From a virus: a stretch of 41,413 bases of DNA. Location: positions 1-41,413 of IMG/VR virus record IMGVR_UViG_3300046792_000341; one strand, given 5' to 3'. Shown here piece by piece: positions 3,906 to 30,119 of this stretch. The position numbers were made by a program, and so were the translations under genes. Under the pieces are notes generated by a model. The model was given only the letters and a program-made list of their open reading frames with translations, searched no databases and was not told where the DNA came from. Each line of letters begins with the position of its first letter. Within the stretch, counting starts at the first letter, position 1.

Positions 3906-4220
3906 ATGAGCACCTCCGTTAACGTTGGCCACACTGTCAGCATGAAGATCAGCTTTCTGGACACAAACGGGAACCCGATGCTGACGCCAGTCACTCCAGA
4001 CTCGCCTCCGATCTGGAGCAACTCCTCACCCGCGACCGGGCAGCTTACTGCCGCCCCCGATGGCCTCTCGGCCGTCGAGTCGGCCATCGCCGCAGGCTCT
4101 GACGTCGTCAGCCTCTCCGTCACCGCAGGTGGCCAGGTCTTCTCCGCGACCCTTGCCATTGACGTAAGCGCAGCCACACAGGTCCTCGGTTCCGTCGCCA
4201 TTGAGCCCACGGTGAACTGA
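3906..4220 (+). CDS. Ig-like (Big/BID-type) beta-sandwich protein
   Basis: The ATG at 3906 (MSTSVNVGHTVSMKISFLDTNG) follows GAGAGAG. The frame extends upstream to 3798 without a better start. The 104 residues have the alternating pattern of a bacterial Ig-like domain: FLDTNGNP, a PPIWSNSSP turn, SLSVTAGGQVFSATLAIDV strands and VLGSVAIEP. Such domains in phages usually decorate virions, but here the gene lies in the early rightward block beside a HiPIP-like gene, so its role is unclear. The 3795-3905 gap holds only small hairpins (for example GTTGGTG/CACCAAC at 3843-3861). Confidence 0.6.
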   Translation: MSTSVNVGHTVSMKISFLDTNGNPMLTPVTPDSPPIWSNSSPATGQLTAAPDGLSAVESAIAAGSDVVSLSVTAGGQVFSATLAIDVSAATQVLGSVAIEPTVN

Positions 4221-4402
4221 TGCCGGGCACGCCTCGCGCGACCAAAAAGGACGCAAGATACCAGGCCGTGCCAAACGGCCTGGAGAAATGTGAGCTCTGC
4301 ATGAATATCCGCTACGCGCCGAAGAGCCCATGGTGCGTGAAGGTCGAAGGCAAGATCAGCCCGCAGGGCTGGTGTCGCTGGTTCAACAAGAAGGCATCAT
4401 GA
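4220..4402 (+). CDS. HiPIP-like iron-sulfur protein
   Basis: The 60-residue protein carries the high-potential iron-sulfur protein pattern: a Tyr before the cluster (Y14), C24-x2-C27, C39 and a GKISPQGWC block ending in C52, followed by an aromatic pair and a basic tail. Four cysteines at this spacing bind one [4Fe-4S] cluster in known HiPIPs, which carry electrons in the periplasm of proteobacteria. Here there is no signal peptide, so it should stay in the cytoplasm. The start overlaps the previous stop (TGATG at 4218). The family match is by motif reading; the function in a phage is unknown. Confidence 0.65.
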   Translation: MPGTPRATKKDARYQAVPNGLEKCELCMNIRYAPKSPWCVKVEGKISPQGWCRWFNKKAS

Positions 4403-4914
4403 AGAGCGGTCACGGTAAACGTATCCCCGGCGCCAAGCGCCACGTTAAGTATACAATCCCGGAGGAGCTTGCGAACGAGATTGACCTTCTTTTCTTCGAC
4501 ACCAACAACCAACGCTTCACCTATGGCTCCCGTTCCCATCTCGTGACCATGCTCCTCCAACAATGGCTCACAAACTATAAGAGGACCTTGCATGAACGAC
4601 ATGCAGCTGCAACTAGATCCGCCACTATTGGTCCCCCTTCCCAGTCCGCAGACCCTGGACCCTGCGGAGTTGAATTCCCGGCTGAAGGAGATCCAACGAA
4701 TTCAAGCCAAGCGCCCGCTGGAGCCCTCGGAGAACCGCGAGGGCCTAACGCTGATTCAAATCATCCGTGGGACGCTGTCAACCTCCGGGCCGAAAGGAAA
4801 AGGCACCCGGAAGAAAGCCGCCGGGAAGATGACCCTGGACGACTTCGAAGCGAGCCTGGGCCTCAGCCTCAAGTGAGAGTGTTCGAACCCCCGGATCACG
4901 GAGACGAACCCTGA
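4399..4914 (+). CDS. Ribbon-helix-helix-like protein with overprinted tail
   Basis: It starts in an ATGA overlap with the HiPIP-like gene. Residues about 12-65 (KRHVKYTIPEELANEIDLLF ... SRSHLVTMLLQQWL) have the strand-helix-helix look of a ribbon-helix-helix DNA-binding protein, the type used for phage repressors and antitoxins. Beyond residue about 65 the frame overlaps the gene at 4592-4876 in another frame, and its sequence becomes Pro/Glu/Arg-rich and low in complexity. It stops in a TGATG overlap with the nuclease gene at 4914. The N-terminal domain is the supported part; the tail may be an overprint with little function. Confidence 0.5.
   Translation: MKSGHGKRIPGAKRHVKYTIPEELANEIDLLFFDTNNQRFTYGSRSHLVTMLLQQWLTNYKRTLHERHAAATRSATIGPPSQSADPGPCGVEFPAEGDPTNSSQAPAGALGEPRGPNADSNHPWDAVNLRAERKRHPEESRREDDPGRLRSEPGPQPQVRVFEPPDHGDEP
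4592..4876 (+). CDS. Hypothetical protein, 94 residues, overlapping
   Basis: MNDMQLQLDPPLLVPLPSPQ begins after AAGAGGA (4580-4586) with good spacing. Its codons carry G or C at most third positions, as in the clear genes around it, arguing that this frame is coding. The centre (LNSRLKEIQRIQAKRP) is helical, and the end reads KMTLDDFEASLGLSLK. No family is recognised. It lies wholly within the preceding gene's open frame. Confidence 0.55.
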   Translation: MNDMQLQLDPPLLVPLPSPQTLDPAELNSRLKEIQRIQAKRPLEPSENREGLTLIQIIRGTLSTSGPKGKGTRKKAAGKMTLDDFEASLGLSLK

Positions 4915-15156: not shown

Positions 15157-15521
15157 GCTTTATCTACATCGCCAGCCCGTATTCAGACCCGGATGAAAAG
15201 GTCCGTCATGCAAGGTACACGAAGGCAGGGTATTACTTGGTCCGTCTCCTCCGGGAGCGGCGCTGGGCTTACTCCCCCATTGTCCACTGCCATGAGATTG
15301 CAAGAATGCACAGGCTCCCCACGGATGCCGCCTTCTGGGCGGAGTATAATTTTCAGATGCTCGAGGTCGCAGCCGAGCTGCATGTTCTCCAGATTGAAGG
15401 CTGGGAACGTTCGGTCGGAGTCGCCCACGAAGTCGCCTACGCACGGAACCGGGGTAAGAAGATTCTCATGATCGGGTGGGGGACCCCTGATGAACGTAAA
15501 AAACTTACGAGCGTATCCTAA
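15153..15521 (+). CDS. DUF1937 / deoxyribosyltransferase-like protein
   Basis: The start is placed at TTG 15153 (TTGA overlap with the polymerase stop, GGAAAG at 15140-15145), giving 122 residues opening MSFIYIASPYSDPDEKVRHA. An ATG at 15087 would overlap the polymerase by 70 bases. The IYIASPYS opening, the VHCHEIARMH segment, WAEYNFQMLEVAAELHVL and SVGVAHEVAYAR match DUF1937, related to nucleoside 2-deoxyribosyltransferases. A role in nucleotide salvage or modification next to the reductase is plausible but not proven. Confidence 0.7.
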   Translation: MSFIYIASPYSDPDEKVRHARYTKAGYYLVRLLRERRWAYSPIVHCHEIARMHRLPTDAAFWAEYNFQMLEVAAELHVLQIEGWERSVGVAHEVAYARNRGKKILMIGWGTPDERKKLTSVS

Positions 15522-16764
15522 CTGGCTTAAAGCCTATGTCGCACACCAGAGATTCAGTGAAAGCCCCACACGGTTCCACTTCTGGACCGGGGTCAGCACC
15601 ATTGCTGGCGCCCTCCGACGACGGGTCTGGATCGATCAGAGAAGCTTTCAGTGGACTCCTAATTTCTATGTTGTCCTTGTCGGACCTGCTGGTGTCGCTC
15701 GAAAGAGCACAAGCATCCGCCAGGGCATCGGGCTCCTCAGTCAGGTCAAAGGCGTGCACCTTGGCGCTCAAAGCACTACTTGGCAAGCTCTACTTGACGC
15801 ACTTGGGGATTGCCAGGAGGGCGTTGAGCTGCCCGGGAAAGCCAAGCCCGAGGTGATGTCCTGCATGACGGTGGTCATCTCAGAGCTCGGAACTTTCATC
15901 CGGCCCGACAACCGCGAGTTCCTTGACTTCCTGACGGAGATCTGGGACGGGCAAAAGAGCGTCTTCAGCCGGCGGACGGTCCTCAAAGGTGAGCTGAAAT
16001 TGACCAATCCCTGGCTGAACATTATTGGCTGCACGACCCCAGCCTGGTTGAAGGATAACTTCTCTGAGATACTCGTCGGCGGAGGGTTTGCTTCTCGAGT
16101 TGTATTCGTCTACGGCAATAAGAAACGTCAACTTGTCGCGTACCCAGGGCTTGAGATAACCGGTCCCGAGTATGAGGCTGAGGAGAGTCTGTTGGCCAGG
16201 GACCTGCAGCAGATTGCGATGCTCAAGGGAGGGTACGAACTGACACCAGAGGCAATTGATTGGGGAATCAAGTGGTATGATCGACACCATAATGAGCCCA
16301 GGCCGGCTCACCTTGCAAGTGATAGCTTTGACGGTTATCTCGACCGAAAACAGAGTCATATTCACAAGCTGTCGATTGTGCTCGCGGCCGCTCAGGGAAA
16401 CGAGCTTAAGATTTCGGCGGATCACCTTATTGAGGCCACCGCGCATATCACAGATCTTGAACTTGATATGATCAACGTATTTAGTTCTATAGGTGTCACG
16501 CCTACGGCTCAGATCAACACTAAGGTGCTGGCTCTTGTCCGCAATCATCGCAGCATCACATATCGTGAGCTCTGGAAGCTCTGCTTTCACACCATCCCAC
16601 CCCGTGACTTTAAGGAAAGCATCAACGCTGCGGTGGATGCGGGTTATGTATCGAGCACGCCTTTCACGACCACGGATGGTAAAAAAGACTCGATGCTTCA
16701 CTACGTGCTTGCCCCCGTCACTGAACCTTCTGACGATAGACGATCTCAGGATAGTTCTTCATGA
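15490..16764 (+). CDS. DUF3987-type helicase-like ATPase
   Basis: This 424-residue protein has a P-loop GPAGVARKST at 65-74, an acidic ISELGTFI segment as likely Walker B near 140, and LTEIWDGQ, LNIIGCTTPAWL and GGGFASRVVFVY blocks typical of DUF3987 proteins, which include phage and plasmid replicative helicase-like ATPases. The C-terminal 100 residues look like a winged helix (ITYRELWKLC...AVDAGYVSSTPF). GGGGGA precedes the start. It overlaps the previous gene by 32 bases and the oppositely oriented giant gene by 47. Being last in the replication block fits a helicase, though no separate primase is seen. Confidence 0.65.
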   Translation: MNVKNLRAYPNWLKAYVAHQRFSESPTRFHFWTGVSTIAGALRRRVWIDQRSFQWTPNFYVVLVGPAGVARKSTSIRQGIGLLSQVKGVHLGAQSTTWQALLDALGDCQEGVELPGKAKPEVMSCMTVVISELGTFIRPDNREFLDFLTEIWDGQKSVFSRRTVLKGELKLTNPWLNIIGCTTPAWLKDNFSEILVGGGFASRVVFVYGNKKRQLVAYPGLEITGPEYEAEESLLARDLQQIAMLKGGYELTPEAIDWGIKWYDRHHNEPRPAHLASDSFDGYLDRKQSHIHKLSIVLAAAQGNELKISADHLIEATAHITDLELDMINVFSSIGVTPTAQINTKVLALVRNHRSITYRELWKLCFHTIPPRDFKESINAAVDAGYVSSTPFTTTDGKKDSMLHYVLAPVTEPSDDRRSQDSSS

Positions 16765-19700
16765 TCCGCTGGGCCACTGGGATGGTGCTTCGATTGACCT
16801 GACCACCTTGCTGCATGGCCTCCTGCATAGCTCGAGTCTGATTCCGCTTCCGGATGCTAGCTGCGATCTTGGCTCCGCTAATCACCATGGAGGGATCTTG
16901 TTCTCGCACTTGCTGGTTGAAGTCGTTGATGGCCTTCATGACGTCATTGACGGCCCCTGGACTTCTGCTACTGATAGCTTTGTCAAGCTGCCCGTAGAGA
17001 GTGACCTTCTCCGCTTGGTAAAGCTGGAGCTGTTCTCGAATGGCGTTGCTCGCTTCCTGCATCTGCCCGACTTTAGTCGGCGTGTAGCCCATGGCTTGCC
17101 CGAGCAGAGCTCCGAGATCTTCTGGATCACTCAGGTCGAACTTGACCAGTCGACCACCCTGCTTCGTAGTAAGGCCTTCGGTAGCGAACCTATAAGTACG
17201 CGCGCCTTGGCGCGCTACGCGAGGCAAGAGACCCTCCCAAGTCTTACTATCGAAACTGCCCGGGTCTTCATTCATGTATTTGAGCAGGGTGAACATCCAA
17301 CCGTAGCCGGCACCGGCGGCCCGGCTGGCGACATCGGACACCCCAGTGCGGTAGTCACCAAATGTGAGCTGCTTCAAGCCCTCCTGCAGTCCCGGCACCA
17401 CTCGGCCGAGAGACCCATTCTGGCTCGCATCGAATTGACCTACGCCGAAGCCTTCCGGCAGAAGGCCCGTGCCGAAGCCATAGCGAGAGATACCGTGCAG
17501 CATAAGGTCCGGTCCTACCTGATCGAAGACCGTACCCTCTGTGAGGTTCCTTGTGTATTCTCTCACCTTATCCAGCAGGTCGAAATCCTTGCCGTAAAGA
17601 TTGAAGCCTAGCTTTCGAAGGAGCCAGATACCAGCATGAGCACCGGACCGCATGACCTGATTCAAATCTTCTGCCCCTGGGAGGCCGGCGAGGCCGAAGA
17701 GCGCAGCCTGGATGAGTCCCATCTGGACGACGCCCGGAGTGAGCCGATAGAGCTCTATCATGTTCTGTGTGTATTTGAAGAAAATAAGTGCGACCTGCGC
17801 CAGATTACTCCGCAGAAATGGGGGACGATTCCATTTAGCGAAAGTGAATTGGGTCTTTTCAAGGACCTCCTTGGCATACAGGTAAGCAGCAGCCTCTGTC
17901 AGATTGAGGCCCTTCGTCTGAAGGTCCCCCATCTCCTTGGGATAAAGCTGCTGAATGTCGATTACCCGCTTATTGTTCGGGTTCTCCATAGCAGCGCGCC
18001 AGGCAGCTTTCGCGGTGATTATACGGTTAAACTCCTCCGCCTTCTGAAAGAGCCACATACCTCGATACGAGAGTTCCCGCCAGATAAGCTGGCTCTTGCT
18101 CCCGGCCAGCGTCTTCAGAAGGTTGTGTCCCTCGGCATAAGCGGCCAGCTCAGCCGCCTGTCCAACGTCTATGAGTCCTTCCTCGCTCATGAAGCTTCGT
18201 GCGAGGTCGAATTGCCCCGGCGGCTTATCTTTCATGTCCAAGGCGCGCATGAATGCGCGAGTCCCTGCGACATTACCGAACTCTCCCATGAGGTGTGGGA
18301 AAGTGGTCGTCGGAGTCTGCAGGAGGTTCGTGAATGCAGCTGCTGGACTCGCACCCAGCTGCCAGAGTGAAATGAAGGCTTTAGTCTTTCCCCAGTCGCG
18401 ACCAGCTTCGGAGATGTAGCGATAGTGGTCGGTCATGTAGGTCAGGATTTCTTGTCGCTTGCCCGTGTTTGCCAGCTGATCCGTGACTAGGGATTGACGG
18501 ACCTTGGCTATGCCTTCCTCAAGGTCGTGCGCGTGCGCCAGGCGAGCGAGATAGTTTGCACCGGACATGAAGAAGCTGCTATGTGCCCGCATAGCATCCA
18601 TGGAATAACCTGGGAGACCATTCTGGGGAAGCCACTTCCGCCTGAATGTGTTGTCGGGCATGTGAAGCTGCTCGAACTCTTCGACCCAATCGAGCTGATC
18701 CTTTGTTAGGCCTGGAAGCTCACTCTTGATCCTCCGGAGGAGAGGTCCTGGAAGGCCCATAAATTCGCCGGCGTTTTCACTGACCGTGCCGTATGTAATC
18801 CGCTGGCCGGGATACTTAGCCCGCACGGAATCGAGAGCTGCATCACGCTGTGCCCGAGTGTCGTAGGCGTGACTGGCAAGGACGGGTTGCTTTGGGTCCG
18901 TGATATCACGAACTGCGATCGTCCAGCGACCAAATCTCGTCATAGGAAAGTACGGCTTGGTCCGAAACGGGGCGTACTCGGAGCGAATTTTCGCCTGAGC
19001 AAGAGCAAGGCGAGCAGGGTCTGAAATGGTCCGGACCGCCTTCTCCAGGGCCAGGTTCTCAGCCTTCCGCAGAAAGACCTTATAGTCGTCCTCAATCCGG
19101 CTCAGGAGCGCCTCTTCCTCCGGCTTGAATTTCTCTCGGAGAAGGAGCCTTGTCCGCTCGAGAGCCGTTGGCTGCCGGACGGTGCCCGCAGCCTTCTCAT
19201 TCCCGGTCCTATAGTTCATCTCCGCGAGATCGAAGATCACTCGATTCATCGCCTCACGGCGGTCTTCGGGAAGCTTAGCCCAGGCCCGGACGGTCTCATC
19301 CGCCCGTGTCTGCCAGAAGGACACGACCTTCTGCCAGAGCTTGATCCCGCCCACGTAGTCCCGAAGGCCCTCAATATGCTCATTATGCCACATCAATTGC
19401 AGGAGGTCCCACCACCGCTTCGTGAACCACCCGATCCGGTCCTTCTCATCCAGGATCCTGTTCAGCTTCCGACTCACTTCCGGGCTCTCCCGGTAGCCCT
19501 CAATCCGCTCGATAATACCACGCATCTCCATGGATGGAAGCCGCGGGGCTGCCTGAGAATACGGAACGCCAAGTCTACGCGCCGCGCTCGCACGAGACTC
19601 TTGCTGCGCTCGGTCCATCGCAGCCGTAAAGGAGTCAGTAGGAGCAGACGCAGACTCCGCTCCAAGGGAGGCTTCAAGCGAAGCTTGGCCGCTGTCGCGC

Positions 19701-22700
19701 CCAGCCTGCCCGATCGAGCCCTGAACCTCGTCCCGCATCCACTCCCGTGGAAGCATGAACATATTATTAAGGATTGGATTTTTCCAGACCTCTTTTGGGA
19801 CCTTTTTAGCCAAGCCTTGCCAGAAGGAAAACATTCCACGGCTGCTCTTGTCCTGAATTGACTCCGCTAATTGCTCCCGAATGAAGTTCGGAGAGAACCA
19901 CATTTTCGACAAAGGATCGAAGACGTAGTGCTTAAGCTCCTGTCGATACCGGAGCCGTGCCATCTTATACCCATCTTCCGTGAATTGCCCGGAAGGAAGC
20001 ATGGAGAAATTAAGGTCCTTTTCTATGTGCTCTGTCATGACCTTCATCATAAAGAGCCTATCTCCACTAGTCTTAATCACCTCCATGTCTGGGCCTTTAA
20101 GCGTGTCTTGCAGCTTAGCCCAGCCTACAGCTTCCTTCATGGCCTTATCATAGAAGACATAGGTGTGCCGAGTCGGAACAGCCCCACCAGAATCTTCCCT
20201 CTGATACGCTGCCTCGAGTTCAGGATGATCCTTCACAGGAGACACGCGATCCGGAGTGATCTCCGGGATCTTCCCTGTCATCTCCGCGCTCTGCGAGCGC
20301 TCAATCATCCGGTCCTTGCGGCCCGCCATCTCTCCGTCGAAGAACCTCCGAAGGACATCCTCCCTTGTGGCGTAACCTTTCTTCGTGAAGGCGTTTTTGA
20401 TCCGCTCCAGAAGGTCCAAGATCCGCTCCATTAGGGCCTTGGACCTGTAGCGAACGGGCAGCTCTCCATTCGCAAAGCGCTCCATGTATTGGGCTACGAG
20501 CTCTTCGCTCTTAGCATCCGCCAGGACTCGAGTAGCTTCCTCCGGAGTCCAGCCTTCAGCTTTAGCTTGCTCTCGCACGCGCCGAGCCAGGTCCGCGGAC
20601 TCTGCCGGATGCAGCGCCATCTTGTCTCCGAGAGCTTCGCTCTCGAGGAGCCTGAATTCTGTCTCATGCATCAGGCCCATCATCCGGTGGACGTGGACCA
20701 GCTCGTGCGCGAAGAACTTCCGGCTGAATTTGGCATCATCCGCTCGGGGCATGGCACCAATGGCGAGCTCAATCAGGGGGAAGTTGAACATCCCCGGAAT
20801 TGGAGCAACCGTCCGGCCCACGGCTCCGGGAGACGCCGGGCCATACACCGGATTAAGCCATCGCCCGATTTCCACCCGAACATTCTCAGGGAACATCGGA
20901 GACATGGTGCGAAGCGCTTCCAATGGTCCGACTTTAAGGAGCTCATCTGAAGCCGTATTTCCTTTGACGTCCACCCCCAACCGATGTAACGCGATCGAAG
21001 CATGCAGCTGAGACATGGTGTTGCCACGATCCCCATATGCCCTCCAGAAGTGCATAGCTGCGGAGAAATGATAGTCCGGCTCTAGAAGGTCCTTGGACTC
21101 GAAGGCCCCAACCTTGTTTTCCCAGGCTTTGAAGAATTTTTCGAGCCCTTTTGCGATCTCCTTGTACTGGCGTTCGAGGAGAGTCTTTGGCTCCGCATTG
21201 GAGATGGACCACCGACGGAACTGCTCCGCGAGCCACTCCGGGTACGTCCGATAGTATTGCGGGTTCACCATTGGGCGCCCGGGCTCCTGCGGTGTGCCGC
21301 TACGGAGGGCCGCCCGGCGCAAGTCGAGCCTGTGATCCAGCAGATGCTTATTATAGGCGTAGCGGAGCATGGTCTGAACTTCGAGCGGAGCCTGCATCAC
21401 CATTCTATACGTGACAAGGTGTCCGATCTCGTGCATCAGGATCGTATAGAGCGAGTTTCGGCGACTTCCAGCGGAATAGTCCTTCACAAGGTATTCCTCT
21501 ATCCCTCGTGCATAGAAGCGGACCGTGCCAGTATCAATAACCGCAGAAGCCGGGTTTCCCCTATAGGTTGGGTCTTCAAAGCTCACCTCAACGGTGACTC
21601 GAGCCGGATGCCCTTCTTTCGTCTTGAGTCCGAGGGCATCCAGGATCTGATCCACCACTGGCAGCTGCTTCGCCACCTCACTTCCAATGGCCCGAATAAC
21701 GGGTTGAAGCTTCTCAAACTCCGGCGGGTGCTCGCTTGCCGCATAGATGTCGGTGTAGACTATAGAGGAAGGGCCAAAGCTCGGATCTCGATTAACAGTG
21801 CTAGAGCCAGAAGCTGGCTCCCGCAGGACACCTGGAGTGAGCTTGTCAAGCTGGAGGGGCTCCTTCGTGATTAAAAGCTCAGACTCTTTAACCGGATCTA
21901 TCCATATTCCATCCTTCATCAAGGCTCGTGCGTGATTGATTATATCAATGGATGGTCCTTCTCCAGAGTTTCTCTCTGAGCGATAGTTTGCTTCCATCAT
22001 ATTCCATTGAGTTATAAGGTCAAGCTTCTCCTTGGTCGAGAGTCCTTCTCGAAAAGTCACTTCTCCGCCACCAGCTATTCCGGAGATTTCACCAGGGGCG
22101 AACTTGTTCAGATCCACAGATACGGGGACTTGTGGTCCCTCCATCATTTGTGTATCCCGTGGATCTATGCTAAGAACCTGTTCTTGAATAGGTCCACCTG
22201 GAGTTAATCTAACTAAGGCTCCTTTATTTATATCCAGGATAGCGATTTGCTTACTCCGGCCCGTGGTGAGGGGCTCGGCCCGCCGACCCGTGAAGGTCCC
22301 ATTATAGTAGAAGCTTGAGCCCCTCGAGGGCACAACCCGAAGGCCCGCATCCGTCAAGGCTTCATAGTGCTGCTCAAGCCCTGGCATCATCTCACCAGTC
22401 ACGGGATTCGGCCCGCCCCGTCGGGCCATCCGTTCGACCTCTTCGCTATGCAAAGCTCGAGCTCGACTAGCATCCACGCTTTGCATCAGCTGTGCATACT
22501 CCGCGTGCAAGAGCACCCGCTCTTCCGGAGACGTGCCCGGCAGGAACCAGATCCGCTCGTGCCCGACCGGCGGCAGGTCGAAGACGTCTGCCGTGATAGC
22601 CGCAGGCTGCAAGCTGCTCTGATCCAATTCCCAAAGTATAGGTTTTTCCGCCTGCGGAGACTTGAGGCTTTGCTTCTCCCACTCCGTATCCGTGAAGACT

Positions 22701-24361
22701 CGTGGGAGGTAGCCGGACTCATAGCTCTGATCCTCCACCGCGTAGCGTGGGACGTTCATCTCAACCCAGTCAAGGACTCCGTCCCTATTGACTGAGGAAT
22801 CAACGGTGTCCCGGAGCAGAGGCGTCGCCCCGAAAGCGTCATTTTCCGGGTGCGGCTGTGTGGACTCGAAGAGGCTCCGATCCGGAGTGATGGGCTTCTG
22901 GATCACGTTCCGGCGGAGCTGAGAGATTGGGCCTGGCTCGGGCGCTGTCGCGCCCGTGGCCTCTGGCGGGGCCTCCCGTGGCGGAGCTCGCTCGAAGACC
23001 GCTCGAGGCCCGCCGAGGCGCATGATCTTCTGATCCAGCGTCGTCCGCTGAGCGTGCTCCGTGATGTCCTGCGTATGCTGCTCGGCGAGAGGGTCGATCT
23101 CCCCAGGTTGGATCTCCCCCCGAGCAAACTTCGGCAAAGGACCGCCCGCCGAAGGTGGTTCTGGAGGCCAAGGACCAAGCCCACCTAGGTCCTCAGTCGG
23201 AGTGGGCGGCCCACCTTCGGCAGGAGGGAGCTCTTCCCTGGTTCCTGGTGGTTGGTCTCCAGTTTCCTCCGGGCGGAACGAGCTCCGCTCTGGAACCCTT
23301 CCTTTCTCGAAGGGATGCACGGCAGCTCCCATCCCTGCACCTAGAGCGACGTTCGTCGCAGCGGACTCGAGCAGACGCTCGCCCCAACCGACCCGATTCG
23401 GCCCGTCACCGAAAAAGCTATAGCCCGGGTCCGTGTACTTTCGGGCGAGAATGTTCAGGGCCTCTTGGCCTGTACCGGCTCCGCCCCCAATTGCAGCGCC
23501 TTTCGCCATAGCTCCCAGGAGGTTCTTCGCGAACGGATCGCCTTTGAGGGCACCGAGCACCTTGAGGGGAAGGTAGGTTTGCAGAGCTCCACCTGCAACA
23601 CCAGTTGCTATGCTCAATCCGGGCTGGGTGCTTCCGGTTGCTCCGAACTGCTCGCCCGCGACTCCGGCGACGGACATTGGGGCAGCCATGGCGAAGGTTC
23701 CGCCAAGCTGTCCTGCGTGGACGAGGGCCGCTCGTGCCGCCAGATTAGCCACACCACGAGTGGCGAGAGTAGCAGATACGCCCCCCACACCACCAGTTGC
23801 AAGCATAGAAATAAGAGCTGGAGTATTTTCGCCAAATCGCTCAGTGAGCCAGTAGCCGAAGTCTCCCAGGTCATGAATGTCCTCTAGTTTCCATTCCGGC
23901 TGTGGAAGAGCCCGCTGCGCAGCCTCCACTTCGTGCATGCTCTGAATAGCTTCCTCACGGTAGCCAAGTCCTTCCTGGCCTACGGCCGTAAGAGCCTTTG
24001 GCACCTGCATAAGTTCACCAGCACCACGCTGGGTGCTTGAGCTTAAGGTCTGCCACCAACCACGTTTCGCGTGCGGGGATTGAGCCTGCAGAGGAGCCTC
24101 AGGTTTTGGCTCTTGTTCCTGCTGAAACTCCTGAGCAACCGCAGAGCCTAGCTCCGCATTTTGACGTGGAGCGGCCTCTGCTGTTCGCTGTGTCGGCTGC
24201 TTCGGCTGCCCCTCATCAAGCACGTCGAAGATCGAGCGGGTCTGCCCGCCCGTTGGCGTTGGCGCAGGTGCAGCCGTCTCGGGCACACGCTGTGGCGGAG
24301 CCGCTTCCGGTATCGGCGCTCCCTTATACTCATCAATGATGTCGAAGATATCTCGAGCCAT
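16718..24361 (-). CDS. Giant polyvalent ejection-type virion protein
   Basis: A 2547-residue protein of the large phage polyvalent type, presumably packaged and ejected with the DNA. The N-terminus repeats IFDIIDE (5-11) and IFDVLDE (44-50) in Pro-rich sequence. About 180-350 is Gly/Ala-rich and hydrophobic (possible membrane entry). Two zincin motifs are visible: HEIGH at 977-981 with a downstream EWLAEQF, and HELVH at 1219-1223 with ESEAL. Near 1806, PMTRFGRW marks a PLxRFG-like domain. Hydrophobic helices lie near 2220, and the end is Gln-rich. No polymerase or lysozyme motif was seen. The start overlaps the upstream stop by one base (TAATG). Confidence 0.8.
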   Translation of the reverse strand: MARDIFDIIDEYKGAPIPEAAPPQRVPETAAPAPTPTGGQTRSIFDVLDEGQPKQPTQRTAEAAPRQNAELGSAVAQEFQQEQEPKPEAPLQAQSPHAKRGWWQTLSSSTQRGAGELMQVPKALTAVGQEGLGYREEAIQSMHEVEAAQRALPQPEWKLEDIHDLGDFGYWLTERFGENTPALISMLATGGVGGVSATLATRGVANLAARAALVHAGQLGGTFAMAAPMSVAGVAGEQFGATGSTQPGLSIATGVAGGALQTYLPLKVLGALKGDPFAKNLLGAMAKGAAIGGGAGTGQEALNILARKYTDPGYSFFGDGPNRVGWGERLLESAATNVALGAGMGAAVHPFEKGRVPERSSFRPEETGDQPPGTREELPPAEGGPPTPTEDLGGLGPWPPEPPSAGGPLPKFARGEIQPGEIDPLAEQHTQDITEHAQRTTLDQKIMRLGGPRAVFERAPPREAPPEATGATAPEPGPISQLRRNVIQKPITPDRSLFESTQPHPENDAFGATPLLRDTVDSSVNRDGVLDWVEMNVPRYAVEDQSYESGYLPRVFTDTEWEKQSLKSPQAEKPILWELDQSSLQPAAITADVFDLPPVGHERIWFLPGTSPEERVLLHAEYAQLMQSVDASRARALHSEEVERMARRGGPNPVTGEMMPGLEQHYEALTDAGLRVVPSRGSSFYYNGTFTGRRAEPLTTGRSKQIAILDINKGALVRLTPGGPIQEQVLSIDPRDTQMMEGPQVPVSVDLNKFAPGEISGIAGGGEVTFREGLSTKEKLDLITQWNMMEANYRSERNSGEGPSIDIINHARALMKDGIWIDPVKESELLITKEPLQLDKLTPGVLREPASGSSTVNRDPSFGPSSIVYTDIYAASEHPPEFEKLQPVIRAIGSEVAKQLPVVDQILDALGLKTKEGHPARVTVEVSFEDPTYRGNPASAVIDTGTVRFYARGIEEYLVKDYSAGSRRNSLYTILMHEIGHLVTYRMVMQAPLEVQTMLRYAYNKHLLDHRLDLRRAALRSGTPQEPGRPMVNPQYYRTYPEWLAEQFRRWSISNAEPKTLLERQYKEIAKGLEKFFKAWENKVGAFESKDLLEPDYHFSAAMHFWRAYGDRGNTMSQLHASIALHRLGVDVKGNTASDELLKVGPLEALRTMSPMFPENVRVEIGRWLNPVYGPASPGAVGRTVAPIPGMFNFPLIELAIGAMPRADDAKFSRKFFAHELVHVHRMMGLMHETEFRLLESEALGDKMALHPAESADLARRVREQAKAEGWTPEEATRVLADAKSEELVAQYMERFANGELPVRYRSKALMERILDLLERIKNAFTKKGYATREDVLRRFFDGEMAGRKDRMIERSQSAEMTGKIPEITPDRVSPVKDHPELEAAYQREDSGGAVPTRHTYVFYDKAMKEAVGWAKLQDTLKGPDMEVIKTSGDRLFMMKVMTEHIEKDLNFSMLPSGQFTEDGYKMARLRYRQELKHYVFDPLSKMWFSPNFIREQLAESIQDKSSRGMFSFWQGLAKKVPKEVWKNPILNNMFMLPREWMRDEVQGSIGQAGRDSGQASLEASLGAESASAPTDSFTAAMDRAQQESRASAARRLGVPYSQAAPRLPSMEMRGIIERIEGYRESPEVSRKLNRILDEKDRIGWFTKRWWDLLQLMWHNEHIEGLRDYVGGIKLWQKVVSFWQTRADETVRAWAKLPEDRREAMNRVIFDLAEMNYRTGNEKAAGTVRQPTALERTRLLLREKFKPEEEALLSRIEDDYKVFLRKAENLALEKAVRTISDPARLALAQAKIRSEYAPFRTKPYFPMTRFGRWTIAVRDITDPKQPVLASHAYDTRAQRDAALDSVRAKYPGQRITYGTVSENAGEFMGLPGPLLRRIKSELPGLTKDQLDWVEEFEQLHMPDNTFRRKWLPQNGLPGYSMDAMRAHSSFFMSGANYLARLAHAHDLEEGIAKVRQSLVTDQLANTGKRQEILTYMTDHYRYISEAGRDWGKTKAFISLWQLGASPAAAFTNLLQTPTTTFPHLMGEFGNVAGTRAFMRALDMKDKPPGQFDLARSFMSEEGLIDVGQAAELAAYAEGHNLLKTLAGSKSQLIWRELSYRGMWLFQKAEEFNRIITAKAAWRAAMENPNNKRVIDIQQLYPKEMGDLQTKGLNLTEAAAYLYAKEVLEKTQFTFAKWNRPPFLRSNLAQVALIFFKYTQNMIELYRLTPGVVQMGLIQAALFGLAGLPGAEDLNQVMRSGAHAGIWLLRKLGFNLYGKDFDLLDKVREYTRNLTEGTVFDQVGPDLMLHGISRYGFGTGLLPEGFGVGQFDASQNGSLGRVVPGLQEGLKQLTFGDYRTGVSDVASRAAGAGYGWMFTLLKYMNEDPGSFDSKTWEGLLPRVARQGARTYRFATEGLTTKQGGRLVKFDLSDPEDLGALLGQAMGYTPTKVGQMQEASNAIREQLQLYQAEKVTLYGQLDKAISSRSPGAVNDVMKAINDFNQQVREQDPSMVISGAKIAASIRKRNQTRAMQEAMQQGGQVNRSTIPVAQRIMKNYPEIVYRQKVQ

Positions 24362-25215
24362 TAGGGTTGCCCAGCCTCACCAGGAATTGGCGTGTATTCT
24401 GTCGCAGCCGTCGCAGCCTTTCCACCCTTCGGGCGGAGACTTTCCAGGAAGCGATCCACGAGAGAGGTCCCAATTCCACCCTGCGTATTACTGAAGGCTC
24501 GATAGTCCTTGTCCACATCTTTTCCATAACCTCGCTTCCGGAACTCTTCCCGATAAGCTTCGTCCGTGTTGAATTTATTCCGGTCAAATTCCGGCTTGCT
24601 CGTGACATCCTTCCAGGGAATTGTGGGCTTAGCTGTGGTTCCAGCCTTGGTTTCAGGCTGTGCAGTCGGAGTTTTCCCAGACTGAGTTTCACTCATACTA
24701 CCACCGCCACTTTCCGGGTGCATAGCATTGTAAGCAGCCATACTTTGTTGACCTGCTTTCATTGCCATCATATGCTTTTCCATTGGGTCCATATTCATAT
24801 AGTTTATGTTCTTATCTATAGAATTATAACCTACTATATATGCAGGATGGTCATGTACACTCTGCCCCTTTTTAAGCCCATATTCTCCACGAGTAGCAGT
24901 AACATCTTTCATCATCTGATTATGCTCCTGAGCAATCTGGAGCTGGGTCTTATTGTGCTCGGATGCTATGGTTCCTCTCTGCGCCATTTCCGCAGTTTGC
25001 TGCTCATGTTTCTTCTGGATCTCCTCCGTGTTTCCAGCGGACTCAAGTCCATGTCCCATAGCTTGGCCGAACTGGGACACGGGGCCGCCCCAACCTCCCG
25101 TGAACGCCTGCGCGGCGAAGGAGAGCAGACCGTTTCGAATCCGTGGGTCCGACAGGACCGACATCAGATTCTGCTGCGGCTGCAGATTTGCTCCAAAGTC
25201 GTCTTCGGCTGCCAT
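24361..25215 (-). CDS. Putative internal virion / ejection protein
   Basis: This 284-residue protein (MAAEDDFGANLQPQQNLMSV) starts with a Gly/Ala-rich hydrophobic helix (RIRNGLLSFAAQAFTGGWGG), then a long polar helix rich in Glu/Gln/His (EIQKKHEQQTAEMAQ...), a Met-rich middle and a polar C-terminal half. This architecture and its place directly before the giant gene suggest an internal head or ejection protein. No family is recognised. AGGAG precedes the start. The DNA around 24740-24860 is visibly richer in A and T than its neighbours. Confidence 0.5.
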   Translation of the reverse strand: MAAEDDFGANLQPQQNLMSVLSDPRIRNGLLSFAAQAFTGGWGGPVSQFGQAMGHGLESAGNTEEIQKKHEQQTAEMAQRGTIASEHNKTQLQIAQEHNQMMKDVTATRGEYGLKKGQSVHDHPAYIVGYNSIDKNINYMNMDPMEKHMMAMKAGQQSMAAYNAMHPESGGGSMSETQSGKTPTAQPETKAGTTAKPTIPWKDVTSKPEFDRNKFNTDEAYREEFRKRGYGKDVDKDYRAFSNTQGGIGTSLVDRFLESLRPKGGKAATAATEYTPIPGEAGQP

Positions 25216-25218
25216 GAT

Positions 25219-25815
25219 CTAGACTCCTGAACGTAGACTTGCTCCGAGAGCCGGGACGCCCAGCGGCTGCGTTCCGCGGCCACCGAGAATCGCCTGAAGG
25301 AGAGCCGCAATGGCGGCGCTTCCATGTGACTGCATCGCGGGCATATGAGAGGCTGCTGGCGCGTGCACACCTCCAGCCATCACCGGAGTCACAGGGTTTG
25401 GCGCCTTGATGCCTGCTAAACCCCCAAGAGCGCTCTGCATCCCCGGAGTGGTGGCCGCCTGAGCCTGAGGTTGAGTCTGTGGCATAGTTGGTTGCCCGGG
25501 CGGGAGCCCCCCCGTGTCCATCCCCGGAGGGGCAGAGCCGATCATCGTCCCCGGCATCGTCGAGGTCGGCATAGCCCCATTGGGACCATTGAAGCCTGGA
25601 CTCGGTGCAGGCTCCGTGCTCACGGGAGGCGAAGCCATAGAGCTCGTCGAAGGCGCCGTCCCTGGCGGGTTCATTCCACCTCCGGCCTGACCTGTGAGTA
25701 GAGCCCCAATGTCCGGCTGTGGTCCAGCCATCCCCGGAGGGGCGCCCGGCATCCCTGGAGCCGAACCTTGCCCCTGCATCATCGTGAGCAGAGCCATCAG
25801 CATTTGTGCGTCCAT
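25219..25815 (-). CDS. Pro/Gly/Met/Ala-rich low-complexity virion protein
   Basis: This 198-residue protein is dominated by Pro, Gly, Met, Ala, Thr and Gln, with near-repeats such as PGMPGAPPGMAG. Only the ends look structured: MDAQMLMALLTMMQ at the start and SAAIAALLQAILGG near the end. AGGAGA precedes the ATG. Three bases separate it from the next gene. Its location among ejection-type genes suggests a disordered internal virion component; function is otherwise unknown. Confidence 0.5.
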   Translation of the reverse strand: MDAQMLMALLTMMQGQGSAPGMPGAPPGMAGPQPDIGALLTGQAGGGMNPPGTAPSTSSMASPPVSTEPAPSPGFNGPNGAMPTSTMPGTMIGSAPPGMDTGGLPPGQPTMPQTQPQAQAATTPGMQSALGGLAGIKAPNPVTPVMAGGVHAPAASHMPAMQSHGSAAIAALLQAILGGRGTQPLGVPALGASLRSGV

Positions 25816-25824
25816 TGTAGTCTC

Positions 25825-26664
25825 CTATAGTCCAAAGCCCATCAGCTTGAGGAAAGGCGAAAGAGCTCCGAGAGCAGAGGCGCCTCCCGTGAACATTGAG
25901 AACGGGCTCGGGCTTGGCACAGATCCCGTTGAGGTCGAGCTTGTCGAAGTCGGTAGGCCCGAAAGTAGGCTCATGATATCGCTGGCCTGCATGAAGGGCA
26001 ACCCTCGCTCCGTGTAGAACCTCGTAGCTGCATCATTCATCTGCTGCTGCTGAAGGTTCTGCTGCTGCCCGCCGACGGAGGACATGACCTCGGGGCCGAA
26101 AAGCTGTTGCGCCTGCACGCTCGGATTATTTGCGATAGCCGTGCCCTGAGCTGAGAGCCCTTGCCCGTACATCTGCTGCGCGAGCTGTGAAATCGCAGAG
26201 TTCGTCCCAATGGCAGTGTCTCCGATGGCTTTGCCTTGTGCAAGTCCCTCTCGACTTCCGCCTCCGGCGTACTGGCCACCTGCAACTGTGCTTGATCCAC
26301 TTATCGCCGGCATGATGTTCTGGAGCAGGTTCCGATTTGCCAGATCCGTGATGGACCCGGCCATGCCCTGAAATTGTGGATTATGCGCGATGTCCAGGGT
26401 GTTTGGACTGAGGATGTTACTCTGGGCTCCAGCTGCCTGCTCTCCCAACATAGTCCCAGCCGTAGCCCCAGTTCCAACCGCAGTATTCTGCGCCTGCGTT
26501 TGCAACGGGGTGAAGCCGGCGACCGTTGGCCCCCCGTACATCTGAAGCGGAGTCGAGGCAAACTGGCTCGCAAATGGCATAGCCATATTCATGAGCTGAG
26601 TTCCTTGCGGACTCAAGTTCGTCTGCGTATTTGTATTCACGGACGGTGAGCTAGGTCCACCCAT
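25825..26664 (-). CDS. Putative ejection / internal virion protein
   Basis: This 279-residue protein is rich in Gly, Ala, Gln, Ser and Thr (…NTNTQTNLSPQGTQLMNMAM). Its helical, Ala/Gly-rich middle (GQYAGGGSREGLAQGKAIGD, then SQLAQQMYGQG) and a C-terminal hydrophobic segment (SALGALSPFLKLMGF) resemble DNA-transfer proteins of short-tailed phages that form a conduit. Placement next to the nozzle-lysis region and before the giant protein agrees. No specific family can be assigned by eye. Confidence 0.5.
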   Translation of the reverse strand: MGGPSSPSVNTNTQTNLSPQGTQLMNMAMPFASQFASTPLQMYGGPTVAGFTPLQTQAQNTAVGTGATAGTMLGEQAAGAQSNILSPNTLDIAHNPQFQGMAGSITDLANRNLLQNIMPAISGSSTVAGGQYAGGGSREGLAQGKAIGDTAIGTNSAISQLAQQMYGQGLSAQGTAIANNPSVQAQQLFGPEVMSSVGGQQQNLQQQQMNDAATRFYTERGLPFMQASDIMSLLSGLPTSTSSTSTGSVPSPSPFSMFTGGASALGALSPFLKLMGFGL

Positions 26665-26665
26665 T

Positions 26666-27145
26666 TTAGTGCCCCATTGCTTTGCGGACGTTCTTCTGAA
26701 GGTAGGTCATGGACGTGTAGCCGTAGGGAGCCAGAAGTCTGCTCCAGCCCGGTCGCCCATGGAAGATGATGCTGGAACCGGAGTTCAGATGCACGAACTT
26801 CTCAAGCTCCTTCAAGCCTGCTGTCAGATGCTCTTTCAGGTTCTTTCCCCCAATGTAGAGCACATGGTAATAGGCGTCGCGCTCGTGGACCTCCCAGGCA
26901 CAGATCCCGAAGATCTCCATGGCGCCTCCGGAGTCGAGGGCAGTCCACCCATGCCAAATTCCATTCCGGAGATAGTTCAGGAGCATTTCAGGGCTATTCA
27001 GGTGCGTAAGCAGGGCCGGATACTGAGTGAAAAAGCTCACAATGTCGGCCTCCAGGGCCTTCACCGCCTCCGGAGTGAGCTTCGCAATTCGGCCCGGAGC
27101 CTCCGTGCTACCTTCTGCAACCTGTACGTACACCTTACTCTCCAT
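26666..27145 (-). CDS. GNAT-like protein of virion block
   Basis: This 159-residue protein resembles an acetyltransferase fold: a helical N-terminus, strands around AMEIFGICAWEV and YYHVLYIGG, a helix KEHLTAGLKELEKFV, then SSIIFHGRPGWSRLLAPYGY, a pattern seen in GNAT-like phage proteins. The usual acetyl-CoA loop (Q/RxxGxG/A) is not clear, so it may have a structural role. AGGAG precedes the ATG. It overlaps the end of the Rz1 gene by 11 bases. Short-tailed phages often keep such a gene beside internal virion proteins. Confidence 0.5.
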   Translation of the reverse strand: MESKVYVQVAEGSTEAPGRIAKLTPEAVKALEADIVSFFTQYPALLTHLNSPEMLLNYLRNGIWHGWTALDSGGAMEIFGICAWEVHERDAYYHVLYIGGKNLKEHLTAGLKELEKFVHLNSGSSIIFHGRPGWSRLLAPYGYTSMTYLQKNVRKAMGH

Positions 27146-27416
27146 ATAGCTCCTGCTGCGTGAGAACTCCAGATTGGAGCTCCTGCAGCTGTTCCCTATT
27201 TACCCACTTTAGCCGTCGTTCGCAGTCAAGGGCTTTTTCCAGTTCCGGGACTGAGAACTCCGAAGCCGTTGGGTCTAGACACGGCGGGTCCGGTGGCGGG
27301 GTCAGTAACCGTTTGTCGATGGCGGATAATGTAAGGGGTTTTGTGATGACTTGCGGCGGCTCTTGGCTTTGCTCGCACCCGGCTAGCAGGGACCCGACAA
27401 GCAGTGCAAGGGTCAG
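27135..27416 (-). CDS. Rz1-like outer-membrane spanin (nested)
   Basis: Within the 3' half of the Rz gene, another frame encodes a lipoprotein signal, TLALLVGSLLAGC with lipobox LAGC, then a Pro-rich stretch (TPPPDPP) and a polar helical end (ELQSGVLTQQELYGE). This is the layout of Rz1, the lipoprotein that pairs with Rz across the periplasm to fuse membranes at lysis. The start is uncertain: no ATG is close. CTG at 27416 with AAAGG upstream gives 93 residues; the frame continues open upstream to an ATG at 27596. Confidence 0.65.
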   Translation of the reverse strand: MTLALLVGSLLAGCEQSQEPPQVITKPLTLSAIDKRLLTPPPDPPCLDPTASEFSVPELEKALDCERRLKWVNREQLQELQSGVLTQQELYGE

Positions 27417-27696
27417 AAAGCGGTACCTTTGCGCGTTCGGTGGCCAGTTCGGCCTCTGTCGCAGCCAGCTTTGACTGAGTCTCTGCCGTGCGTTGAGCGG
27501 CTGCCTGCTCGGAGGCTTCGAGGGCTGTGGCCTTATCTGCGTTGGCTTTGTCGAGCTTGAAGTTAGCTTCTGCGATCTCCGTTTTCCAGTTCGCATTACA
27601 CGTCTCCACGGCCTGATGTTGCAAGTGCCAGACGGCGCCGCCTCCGCCAACGGCAGCAACCACAATAAGTCCAAGAATGATCACGAGCTGAATCAT
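27226..27696 (-). CDS. Rz-like inner-membrane spanin
   Basis: The 156-residue protein starts MIQLVIILGLIVVAAVGGGG, one membrane helix, followed by a periplasmic coiled-coil rich in Ala, Glu, Lys and Gln (about residues 30-95), as in Rz inner-membrane spanins. The ATG at 27696 follows GGAGG and overlaps the endolysin stop (ATGA). The C-terminal 60 residues overlap the Rz1 frame and are Pro/Arg-rich. With the endolysin and Rz1 it completes a lysis cassette; no holin is identified. Confidence 0.75.
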   Translation of the reverse strand: MIQLVIILGLIVVAAVGGGGAVWHLQHQAVETCNANWKTEIAEANFKLDKANADKATALEASEQAAAQRTAETQSKLAATEAELATERAKVPLSDPCTACRVPASRVRAKPRAAASHHKTPYIIRHRQTVTDPATGPAVSRPNGFGVLSPGTGKSP

Positions 27697-28256
27697 ACCA
27701 CGCCTCCAGCCTGCTTGTCTAGGGCAAGTGCGATGTTCCGGACACGCTCGACGCGCGCGAGCCACCCATCTCGAAACTTGTGATTCTTATGCCCGGGCTC
27801 CGAGATTGAGATCAAGTAATCCCTCCTCGTATTCTGATACGCGTTGATCACGTCCGCAATCACGAGCTGGTCGAGGGCTTTGATGGCGGCGTCGTAGGGG
27901 GTTGCCCCGGTGAGGTCTTCGAGGGTTGGCTTGCTCCGCCCGACCCCACTGTTGACTCCGTAGTCGGCAACACAGTAGTCGACTCCGGCGGGGAGCTCGT
28001 CGGCGAGGACTTCGTCCCAGTAGTACCGCTTGTATATGGGGGCAGCGGATTCAGGCGTAAGGGCCTTGACCTTTGCGACCAATATGTCCCAATCGCCTTC
28101 TCCACGGGCTGGAAGATGGACCTCATTCCACCGAGCAACGTCCGCAATCGTGACACCGCACTTTGTAGGCCCGCCAGAGTCATCTGGATCATCTTCATAC
28201 TTCGTTCCTTCGTCTTTCATGAGGTGAGAGTAGAAAAGGTCCCAAGTGCTGCGCAT
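27693..28256 (-). CDS. GH108 endolysin (peptidoglycan hydrolase)
   Basis: A 187-residue predicted muramidase that cuts the cell wall at lysis. MRSTWDLFYSHLMKDEG places the catalytic Glu at E16, followed by the family signature DPDDSGGPTKCGVTIADV, a KRYYWD segment and VADYGVNSGVGRS, all typical of glycoside hydrolase family 108. The ATG at 28256 follows GAGGGG; a longer frame from 28340 overlaps the upstream gene and has no site. There is no signal peptide, so it would need a holin for export. Confidence 0.85.
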   Translation of the reverse strand: MRSTWDLFYSHLMKDEGTKYEDDPDDSGGPTKCGVTIADVARWNEVHLPARGEGDWDILVAKVKALTPESAAPIYKRYYWDEVLADELPAGVDYCVADYGVNSGVGRSKPTLEDLTGATPYDAAIKALDQLVIADVINAYQNTRRDYLISISEPGHKNHKFRDGWLARVERVRNIALALDKQAGGVV

Positions 28257-28266
28257 TTTGCCCCTC

Positions 28267-28512
28267 TTATAGCTTGAACCAGGCACCAGAGCGTCTTTCG
28301 TAGAGGCCACGGCCGGATCCAGGGTCCCAATTCGTGCCATCGGCGTAAACTAGCATCCCATCGCTGAGTTTAGCCGGCGGAGCGTTGAGAATAGTGAAAG
28401 TCAACACATCCGGCTGCGGAACTGCACGAGAAATGGCCTCGAACTGCTGTCGAGCCCAGTCTCTGGTCTGCTCATCCTCTCCCGGAGGAGCTTGTGGAGT
28501 GAATTTTGCCAT
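28267..28512 (-). CDS. Small virion-associated hypothetical protein
   Basis: The 81-residue protein MAKFTPQAPPGEDEQTRDWA has a Pro-rich start, a short amphipathic helix (QQFEAISRAV) and a beta-rich end (DGMLVYADGTNWDPGSGRGL). Short proteins of this plan, with a tryptophan/glycine-rich beta end, often follow the nozzle or fibre genes of short-tailed phages. It starts one base inside the end of the nozzle gene and precedes the endolysin by 10 bases. Function unknown. Confidence 0.6.
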   Translation of the reverse strand: MAKFTPQAPPGEDEQTRDWARQQFEAISRAVPQPDVLTFTILNAPPAKLSDGMLVYADGTNWDPGSGRGLYERRSGAWFKL

Positions 28513-30119
28513 TACTGGTTGCTCAGGATGCTAACTTCAAGGCCGATTCCCTGAAGTTCCCACGGATTGTTATCGGTTGAGCTGATATTGTAGGCTAAAA
28601 GCCTTCCATTTGCCACGAAGTCGAGGTATTTTTGGGTCTGAGGGTTGAAAGTCTGTGTCGGCTGCCACGTGATGGCGCCCTTGATCTGCTCCTGTGCACC
28701 CATCTTAATTGCAAAGGTCCCATTCCCATCAATCTGAGGCCAAAAGCGAGAGCAAAGCTTGCGCGAATTGTAATCAACGATTGGTTGCCCCTTCCGATCC
28801 TTGCCAACGATCGCAAGTCCCTCTCGCTCGACAAAAGCGAGCGGGGCAACCGTGTCGAAGGCTAGCCCCGAGTCGAGCTGATAGAGCTTACTTTTCCCCG
28901 GGCTCGAGTAGATGAAGCCTCGAGACCCCGGAGTGTCCCACGGGCTCGTGTCTGAACTCCAAGGAGTTGTCGCCGCATCCCAGGTTCGCCCGGGCGTTCC
29001 AATAATCGTCCCGACCGCGGTGTATAGGCCATCCCAGTCCCGGAATTGCACTGTGTCAAACTGGTAGTTCCAGATCATCACCTTGTTTGGAAGGGTGTTT
29101 CCGGAGCTCGGATAGCAGAACCACACCTCACGTTGCGGAATGTTGTCGAAGGCGTAGGCTGAGATGTAGTTGACTGCGTCCATGTCTGCAAAGAGAAACT
29201 TCCGCTCACGCTCGTTCAGGATGCTCTTCGCACTGTTCCGGTAGCCGTAATGGTACAGGGCATCGTCCTGAGAGACCACGAAGTGCCGCTGCCCCTTGTC
29301 GATGGCGCAGACCGCCCTCGGGTTCAACACTCCAGAGGTGGCCAAGATCAGCTCAAAGTGCATCACGTCCTGCCCGCCGATGAAAGTCATCACGTGGGTG
29401 GACATAACCTTGTAGATGATCAGAGAGTTACCAAGCATGAGGCCCGTCAGGATCTCGCCGCCCTCAATGTCTGTGAGCTCAATCCGACCTGCATCGTGCG
29501 TGGCATCCGTGAAGTCCCAGGTGACGGGGATCGTGCCGGGATCAGTCTTCGCCGACCACCATACCATATGCGGCGAGATCGTGACGCCGGAGACAATGTT
29601 GAGGGCAACCAGATACTGGCCGAAGGCCACGACCTTCTTCGCAATTGTCGAGGCGGGCCAGTTCGGCAGATTTTGAAGCAGCTGCGCGGGATTCAAATTG
29701 GACCAGTACTGTGGGACGTCCAGCTGATCATTCAGGATCGGCACGCCCCCAATAATACAGAAGTTCCAATCCCACTGGTTCGCCGTGATATAGGCACCAC
29801 CAGCCGCCCGCGTGATCGTATGGTGCGTTCCGTCGTAGACGAAAGCCGCAGTCTTCGTGCCATAGAGCCAAAACACGATGCCCTGCGCAGGCACCGCAAA
29901 GACCCAATCCGGACCGCCACTTGGCGTTCCATAGACCTGCGTATGGCCCAAGATCCTCTGAACCATCCGATTCTGAAACCGGATGTTGTTCCCATCTGTG
30001 AAGGCTTCCGGAGGCAGCAGGTGCCCTGGCCGATCTTTGATGATCCCGAGCGTGCCAAGGTCATCCAACGGAATATACGTCGGAGGTGGGAAGCTTTGTC
30101 TTGCTGCAGCCCGTGCCAT
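28512..30119 (-). CDS. gp10/nozzle-like tail protein
   Basis: A 535-residue, beta-strand and tryptophan-rich protein (PPPTYIPLDDLGTLGIIKDR near the start, then EAFTDGNNIRFQNRMVQRIL), which matches the P22 gp10-like / SU10 nozzle family that forms the end of the short tail. Repeated strand-turn units with W and D (WDWNFCIIGG, WWSAKTDPG, WDAATTPWSSDTSPWDTPG) fit a propeller-like fold. Its place directly after the fibre and adaptor genes supports this. Confidence 0.75.
   Translation of the reverse strand: MARAAARQSFPPPTYIPLDDLGTLGIIKDRPGHLLPPEAFTDGNNIRFQNRMVQRILGHTQVYGTPSGGPDWVFAVPAQGIVFWLYGTKTAAFVYDGTHHTITRAAGGAYITANQWDWNFCIIGGVPILNDQLDVPQYWSNLNPAQLLQNLPNWPASTIAKKVVAFGQYLVALNIVSGVTISPHMVWWSAKTDPGTIPVTWDFTDATHDAGRIELTDIEGGEILTGLMLGNSLIIYKVMSTHVMTFIGGQDVMHFELILATSGVLNPRAVCAIDKGQRHFVVSQDDALYHYGYRNSAKSILNERERKFLFADMDAVNYISAYAFDNIPQREVWFCYPSSGNTLPNKVMIWNYQFDTVQFRDWDGLYTAVGTIIGTPGRTWDAATTPWSSDTSPWDTPGSRGFIYSSPGKSKLYQLDSGLAFDTVAPLAFVEREGLAIVGKDRKGQPIVDYNSRKLCSRFWPQIDGNGTFAIKMGAQEQIKGAITWQPTQTFNPQTQKYLDFVANGRLLAYNISSTDNNPWELQGIGLEVSILSNQ

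Follow-up and report, generated by a model that had tools for sequence, protein, structure and literature searches.

The gene that closes the late operon of a LUZ24-like podovirus encodes a giant protein without cysteine, in which two zincin domains of different clades precede a PLxRFG C-terminal domain. We consider it to be an internal virion (ejection) protein with probably active zincins, and put the probability of this reading at about two in three; we infer its packaging, delivery, catalysis, substrate and timing of action. That several zincins can occur in one polyvalent protein is already known, and was described in 2017 (Iyer et al., 2017; PMC5512222). What is new is a further member with an uncommon pairing of two zincin clades, and the link to cysteine exclusion. 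PLxRFG giants make up about 10–25% of many podovirus genomes, and are labelled in papers and records as proteins of DNA metabolism, regulation, antirestriction or as polymerases. The evidence points to a single alternative for them, namely ejected proteins with built-in zincins.

Genome setting of the giant gene

The window, i.e. the whole stretch of DNA analysed, covers an entire IMG/VR viral contig of 41,413 bases. The plus strand half carries replication genes (DNA polymerase, ribonucleotide reductase and primase), and the minus strand half carries late genes, which encode an endolysin as well as the portal/connector, major capsid, tail and virion structural proteins. The capsid protein is closest to that of Microcystis phage Mel-JY34 (43%), followed by Vibrio phage VS-ABTNL-3 (42%). 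The protein encoded at 28512-30119 is a homologue of LUZ24 gp56, which indicates that the phage is LUZ24-like and short-tailed (a podovirus).

A preliminary description of this DNA had proposed an open frame of 2547 residues at 16718-24361. Translation confirms that the frame is real, with an ATG start and no internal stop, and places it on the minus strand, which had been left unstated. The gene is convergent with the plus strand primase gene (15490-16764), and the 3' ends of the two overlap by 47 bp. The giant gene and its late neighbours are as follows.

16718..24361, minus strand: entire giant gene, closing the late operon; 2547 aa, no cysteine
24361..25215, minus strand: late neighbour, candidate ejection partner; 284 aa, zero Cys
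25219..25815, minus strand: late neighbour, candidate ejection partner; 198 aa, zero Cys
25825..26664, minus strand: late neighbour, candidate ejection partner; 279 aa, no Cys; family located upstream of PLxRFG giants

The giant gene lies at the end of the late operon along with capsid, connector and tail genes; such a position among late virion genes is that of a polyvalent protein (Iyer et al., 2017). In relatives, the gene order runs from the gp56 homologue through small genes, including the 25825-26664 family, to the giant, which closes the late operon. This family lies upstream of PLxRFG giants in many relatives, and includes a Vibrio phage VS-ABTNL-3 gene annotated 'putative DNA injection protein'. 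In LUZ24 itself, the virion structural proteins gp50-gp52 occupy the position of the giant.

Two other minus strand regions of the late block may be mentioned. A 159-aa protein encoded at 26666-27145, between the candidate ejection genes and the lysis genes, reads like a GNAT acetyltransferase, and had no match in a Pfam search; the late blocks of ICP2 and Mae-Yong1326-1 also contain annotated acetyltransferases. At 27135-27765, overlapping frames lie beside the endolysin, one of them with a lipoprotein-like LLAGC, and possibly represent an Rz/Rz1 spanin pair.

Zincin domains and the C-terminal region

The regions distinguished within the giant, from N to C terminus, are listed below.

23327..23839, minus strand: Gly/Ala-rich, weakly hydrophobic N-terminal region, residues 175-345; similarity to L014
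21782..23104, minus strand: no recognisable relative or domain, residues 420-860; about 440 residues
21113..21472, minus strand: zincin 1 (class I), residues 964-1083; H977, H981, E1042; general base E978
20315..20722, minus strand: zincin 2 (class II), residues 1214-1349; H1219, H1223, E1287; general base E1220
18992..19444, minus strand: helical segment, residues 1640-1790; conserved in PLxRFG proteins
16787..18955, minus strand: PLxRFG ('tail-700') C-terminal domain, residues 1803-2525; NF032893

The two HExxH motifs are HEIGH at residues 977-981 and HELVH at residues 1219-1223. The earlier numbering of E978 and E1220 was right; the spacing is 242 residues, given previously as 240. Composition-preserving shuffles contained at least one HExxH in 5% of cases and at least two in 0.05%. 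A third ligand had been suspected behind each motif, and E1042 (YPEWLAEQ) and E1287 (SEELVAQ) fit this role, each aligning with the invariant Glu of its own family. Both H977/H981/E1042 and H1219/H1223/E1287 combine the HExxH of a zincin-like metallopeptidase with a downstream Glu in the conserved helix that comes next; behind the ligands of zincin 2 lies the family signature GYATREDV, at residues 1329-1336.

Profiles for class I (HExGH ... [DE]E[WFY]xA) and class II (HExxH ... EExxA ... RGLGFxTxEDIF) were built without the window protein, from segments taken from 44 PLxRFG viral-contig loci, a DNA-pattern search and phage records. The class I profile matched residues 964-1083 at 41.7 bits (i-E 2.5e-12) and scored zincin 2 at 0.7 bits, while the class II profile matched residues 1214-1349 at 48.9 bits (i-E 1.8e-14) and scored zincin 1 at 3.6 bits; the top score among 400 shuffled decoys was 9.7 bits. 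The two independent profiles thus identify the motifs as genuine family domains and not chance matches. Since neither profile gives the other zincin more than 4 bits, zincin 1 and zincin 2 are, on sequence grounds, members of two different clades, with all ligands present. The possibility that zincin 1 is a duplicate of zincin 2 was rejected on the same cross-scores.

Similar domains occur in other phages. Zincin 1 matched Microcystis phage Mae-Yong1326-1 and Aeromonas phage phiA008 by phmmer. As an independent check of class II, its C-terminal DNA signature RGLGFxxxEDIF alone identified 14 loci, 13 of which have HExxH upstream; the motif is present in every frame read, and in nearly all it lies 90-145 residues upstream. 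Of the PLxRFG giants that are full-length and non-redundant, 18 of 21 contain HExxH, with 0.5 expected by chance, and the giant of locus L054 has an HExxxH variant of the kind described by Iyer et al. A second HExxH is also present in L019/L020, Mae-Yong1326-1, Epa33, L057/L059 and the StenR_269 giant, profile tests covering part of this group. In another PLxRFG relative, the L035 giant, a degenerate YEELLH replaces HExxH at residue 835, possibly marking an inactivated zincin. The isolated HERLH at residue 559 of T7 gp16 (L070) has no zincin profile support, and is probably a chance match.

Wider searches gave little. A class II pair-alignment scan found no relative, and the class I alignment was too variable for scanning. 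A search for zincin 2 in the contigs of eight relatives, run without a positive control, gave no match, a result of little weight. Against PDB sequences, the class I profile produced insignificant zincin matches only (FtsH 0.24, MMPs above 1).

The AlphaFold model of zincin 1 has a mean pLDDT of 45; values are higher, about 64-77, for the HExxH and Glu helices and preceding strands. At this low overall confidence it shows three strands followed by the HExxH helix and the Glu helix. For zincin 2 the mean pLDDT is 60 and the HExxH and Glu helices reach about 80-92, but the model resolves no sheet. Foldseek comparison of both weak models with PDB and BFVD gave no significant structural neighbour, and a joint structure alignment of the two zincins was misaligned and was discarded. 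Domain structure prediction, as proposed in the preliminary description, therefore gives fairly confident core helices, but whole-domain models of low confidence and without a library match. The predictions do not show the HExxH sequences as buried chance matches, the outcome that description had set against its own proposal; given the low-confidence models, the fold is likewise unconfirmed.

PMTRFG lies at residues 1806-1811 (window 18929-18946). It had rightly been called PLxRFG-like, but it is not an isolated segment, and opens a C-terminal domain of about 730 residues. This domain belongs to NCBIfam NF032893 (PLxRFG 'tail-700'), which matches the giant at 9.1e-70 and 235.9 bits (curated cutoff 100), and BLASTP with the region gives 4e-68 to Microcystis phage Mel-JY34. 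All significant PHROG matches of the giant fall on this part. The preceding residues 1640-1790 are similar to the PLxRFG loci L011/L016 (2e-20) and L017 (7e-10). The corresponding part of L017 has a weak LPD39 match, and LPD39 precedes PLxRFG in PEp14 and Mwe-JY07.

At the other end of the protein, residues 175-345 resemble the N-terminal region of L014 (2e-11), and G+A reaches 43% in residues 201-300. The Gly/Ala-rich part noted previously is therefore present, but it lies at the N terminus before the zincins and not between them and PMTRFG. Two hydrophobic zones can also be seen, but both Kyte–Doolittle peaks are weak (1.52 at residues 181-201 and 1.47 at residues 2207-2230), so a membrane segment is not established. 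Residues 420-860 had no match in phage records, relatives or Pfam, and the whole giant had no match in Pfam, including LPD38 and LPD39. Single-protein scans of viral contigs found no close relative, and a PLxRFG pattern scan of GTDB genomes found no relative with the patterns used. The term polyvalent, taken strictly as at least two unrelated activities on one chain of an invading element, fits the giant only in part: its recognised domains are the two zincins and the helical PLxRFG/LPD39-like parts, no second known enzymatic activity was seen, and residues 420-860, the one sizeable stretch left, match nothing.

Cysteine exclusion

Not one of the 2547 residues of the giant is Cys (P about 1e-12, taking the rate of the plus strand genes), and the three genes just upstream are also without Cys. 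The four late genes form a contiguous minus strand block (window 16718-26664) of 3308 aa with zero Cys. Across 51 PLxRFG-type giants Cys occurs 5 times in 111,120 residues, 46 of the 51 having none, and other long ORFs in the same loci contain 0.99% Cys. This set includes fragments and near-duplicates, yet spans proteins only 20-30% identical; it also counts Mae-Yong1326-1 and phiA008, which are two-domain giants without PLxRFG.

Proven ejection proteins of podoviruses show much the same: gp50, gp51 and gp52 of N4, gp15 and gp16 of T7, and gp7, gp16 and gp20 of P22 have zero Cys, as do gp50-gp52 of LUZ24. T7 gp14 has one Cys, and the replication enzymes of the reference phages have the usual 1-2%. 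In P1, which injects through a long tail, there are 9 Cys in DarB, 2 in DdrB, 1 in DarA and none in the tape measure protein. Podovirus DarB-like giants have 0-1 Cys in nearly 5,000 residues, and the alignment positions of the P1 DarB cysteines are Ala, Ser or a gap in podovirus giants. This comparison between P1 DarB, with its long contractile tail, and the podovirus DarB-like giants makes the periplasm/disulfide explanation testable.

Absence of Cys is already on record for N4-like RNA polymerases, with passage through the tail or periplasm given as the reason (PMC2784036, PMC3715699, PMC3915230, PMC4837373). It has also been noted in the giants of Stenotrophomonas phage StenR_269 and Zobellviridae, and there served as an argument for a polymerase (PMC10747016). 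A literature search found no statement of Cys absence for the PLxRFG class. We tentatively suggest, at somewhat below even odds for the combined proposal, that Cys exclusion is a general selective mark of proteins of short-tailed phages that cross the periplasm, and that zincin pairs of different clades have arisen several times. The mark would extend to the PLxRFG/polyvalent class as a whole, even to enzyme domains that retain Cys in long-tailed P1, and the repeated pairs would be those of the giant described here, Mae-Yong1326-1, Epa33, L019/L020 and StenR_269. If this is true, Cys exclusion would let ejected proteins be read from sequence, and the repeated two-clade pairs would point to cutting in two separate steps as the phage enters.

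Proposed role and comparison with known systems

The best reading of the giant is an ejection protein codelivered with the DNA, because of its place at the late operon end, synteny, zero Cys and the analogy with N4 vRNAP. Delivery with the DNA, already thought probable in the preliminary description, gains support from the same observations and is the best-supported step of the mechanism, by indirect evidence and analogy. The giant would be packaged in the head, and would pass the short tail and host envelope with the DNA, at least partly unfolded; the small Cys-free proteins encoded just upstream may be co-ejected with it. The PLxRFG domain is probably a packaging or ejection scaffold. Its position after a zincin is comparable to that of the helical C-terminal domain (CTD) of N4 vRNAP, in which an HExxH zincin domain lies before a large helical CTD (PMC12633501). 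Both zincins, of two clades, are probably active peptidases. Their action would most likely follow delivery, and would divide the ejected chain into working pieces and/or cleave a protein of the envelope or host. Self-cutting and host cutting, both suggested earlier, are inseparable on present evidence, and action after delivery is favoured.

Iyer et al. (2017; PMC5512222) propose a processing role for zincins, by which polyvalent proteins are split into functional pieces either before injection or after it, and report that N4 vRNAP is packaged unprocessed despite its zincin. A zincin need not therefore mean self-processing. On a rival reading, the zincins cut host or envelope targets, e.g. 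periplasmic or defence proteins, and not their own chain. Two clades on one chain suggest two substrates, and other polyvalent domains act on host targets, according to the same text. However, zincins are there the commonest polyvalent hub domain whatever their partners, and are read as processing enzymes; we regard cutting of host targets alone as unlikely, while giving it real weight. Activity may even be dispensable, because the relative L035 has lost the first His of its motif. Catalytically dead structural domains that aid packaging would fit this loss, and also N4, where encapsidation depends on the zincin-bearing region although the protein stays unprocessed (Iyer et al., 2017; PMC5512222). 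They are nevertheless rather improbable here, as both domains of the giant retain every ligand and the general base, and 18 of 21 relatives have an intact motif.

Two names in current use carry far lower odds. The giant is large, Cys-free and in the same syntenic position as the Cys-free StenR_269 and Zobellviridae giants proposed to be virion RNA polymerases (PMC10747016), and a phiC725A homologue is annotated 'putative internal virion polymerase'. However, phmmer of the giant against N4 gp50 finds nothing, no polymerase profile matched in Pfam, PHROGs or NCBIfam, and the StenR_269 giant itself has two HExxH 254 residues apart, so size and lack of Cys are no sign of a polymerase. A vRNAP identity is thus very improbable, and was rejected for want of a T7-like RNA polymerase domain by either the N4 gp50 or the profile comparison. 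Least probable of all is a DarB-like antirestriction protein, a name borne by many PLxRFG homologues. PHROG 10089 ('DarB-like antirestriction') does match the giant, but only over profile positions 3931-4623, in the C-terminal PLxRFG part, and Pfam finds no methylase or helicase domain, which refutes a DarB enzymatic core (DNA methylase–SNF2 helicase) for this protein. The name is therefore one carried over from neighbouring domains. JC1 gp69, a DarB-like podovirus giant with LPD38, has been detected in virions by mass spectrometry; it was dropped as virion evidence for the PLxRFG domain, since no Burkholderia phage matches this domain.

Among the closest known systems are XAI96480 of Mel-JY34 and PhiVS24 of VS-ABTNL-3, which share the PLxRFG C-terminal domain, the late operon end, the lack of Cys and a zincin upstream. 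These have one class I zincin each, whereas the giant carries a class II zincin in addition, and no relatives match its N-terminal part. The polyvalent proteins of Iyer et al. (2017; PMC5512222) are similar in carrying several zincin clades on one long phage chain beside LPD-type domains. About 36% of them have one to five zincins, and about 8% of those have more than one; the pair seen here and its order were not found in the text available. N4 vRNAP gp50 is also a giant, Cys-free virion protein encoded by a late gene, and its HExxH zincin precedes a large helical CTD. It differs in its polymerase domain, which is absent from the giant, and in its zincin, which reaches no significant score with the zincin profiles.

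The giant WQZ00968 ('putative vRNAP') of Stenotrophomonas phage StenR_269 is again Cys-free, with two HExxH, and forms the last part of the late block, but its zincins are of other clades, it is without a PLxRFG domain, and it has no significant sequence similarity to the giant. A comparison with N4 vRNAP found no similarity, and WQZ00968 is more likely a two-zincin ejection protein than the published vRNAP. Its HExxH motifs (L074, 16736-23548) lie at residues 776 (HEGKHAAD) and 1030 (HEVQH).
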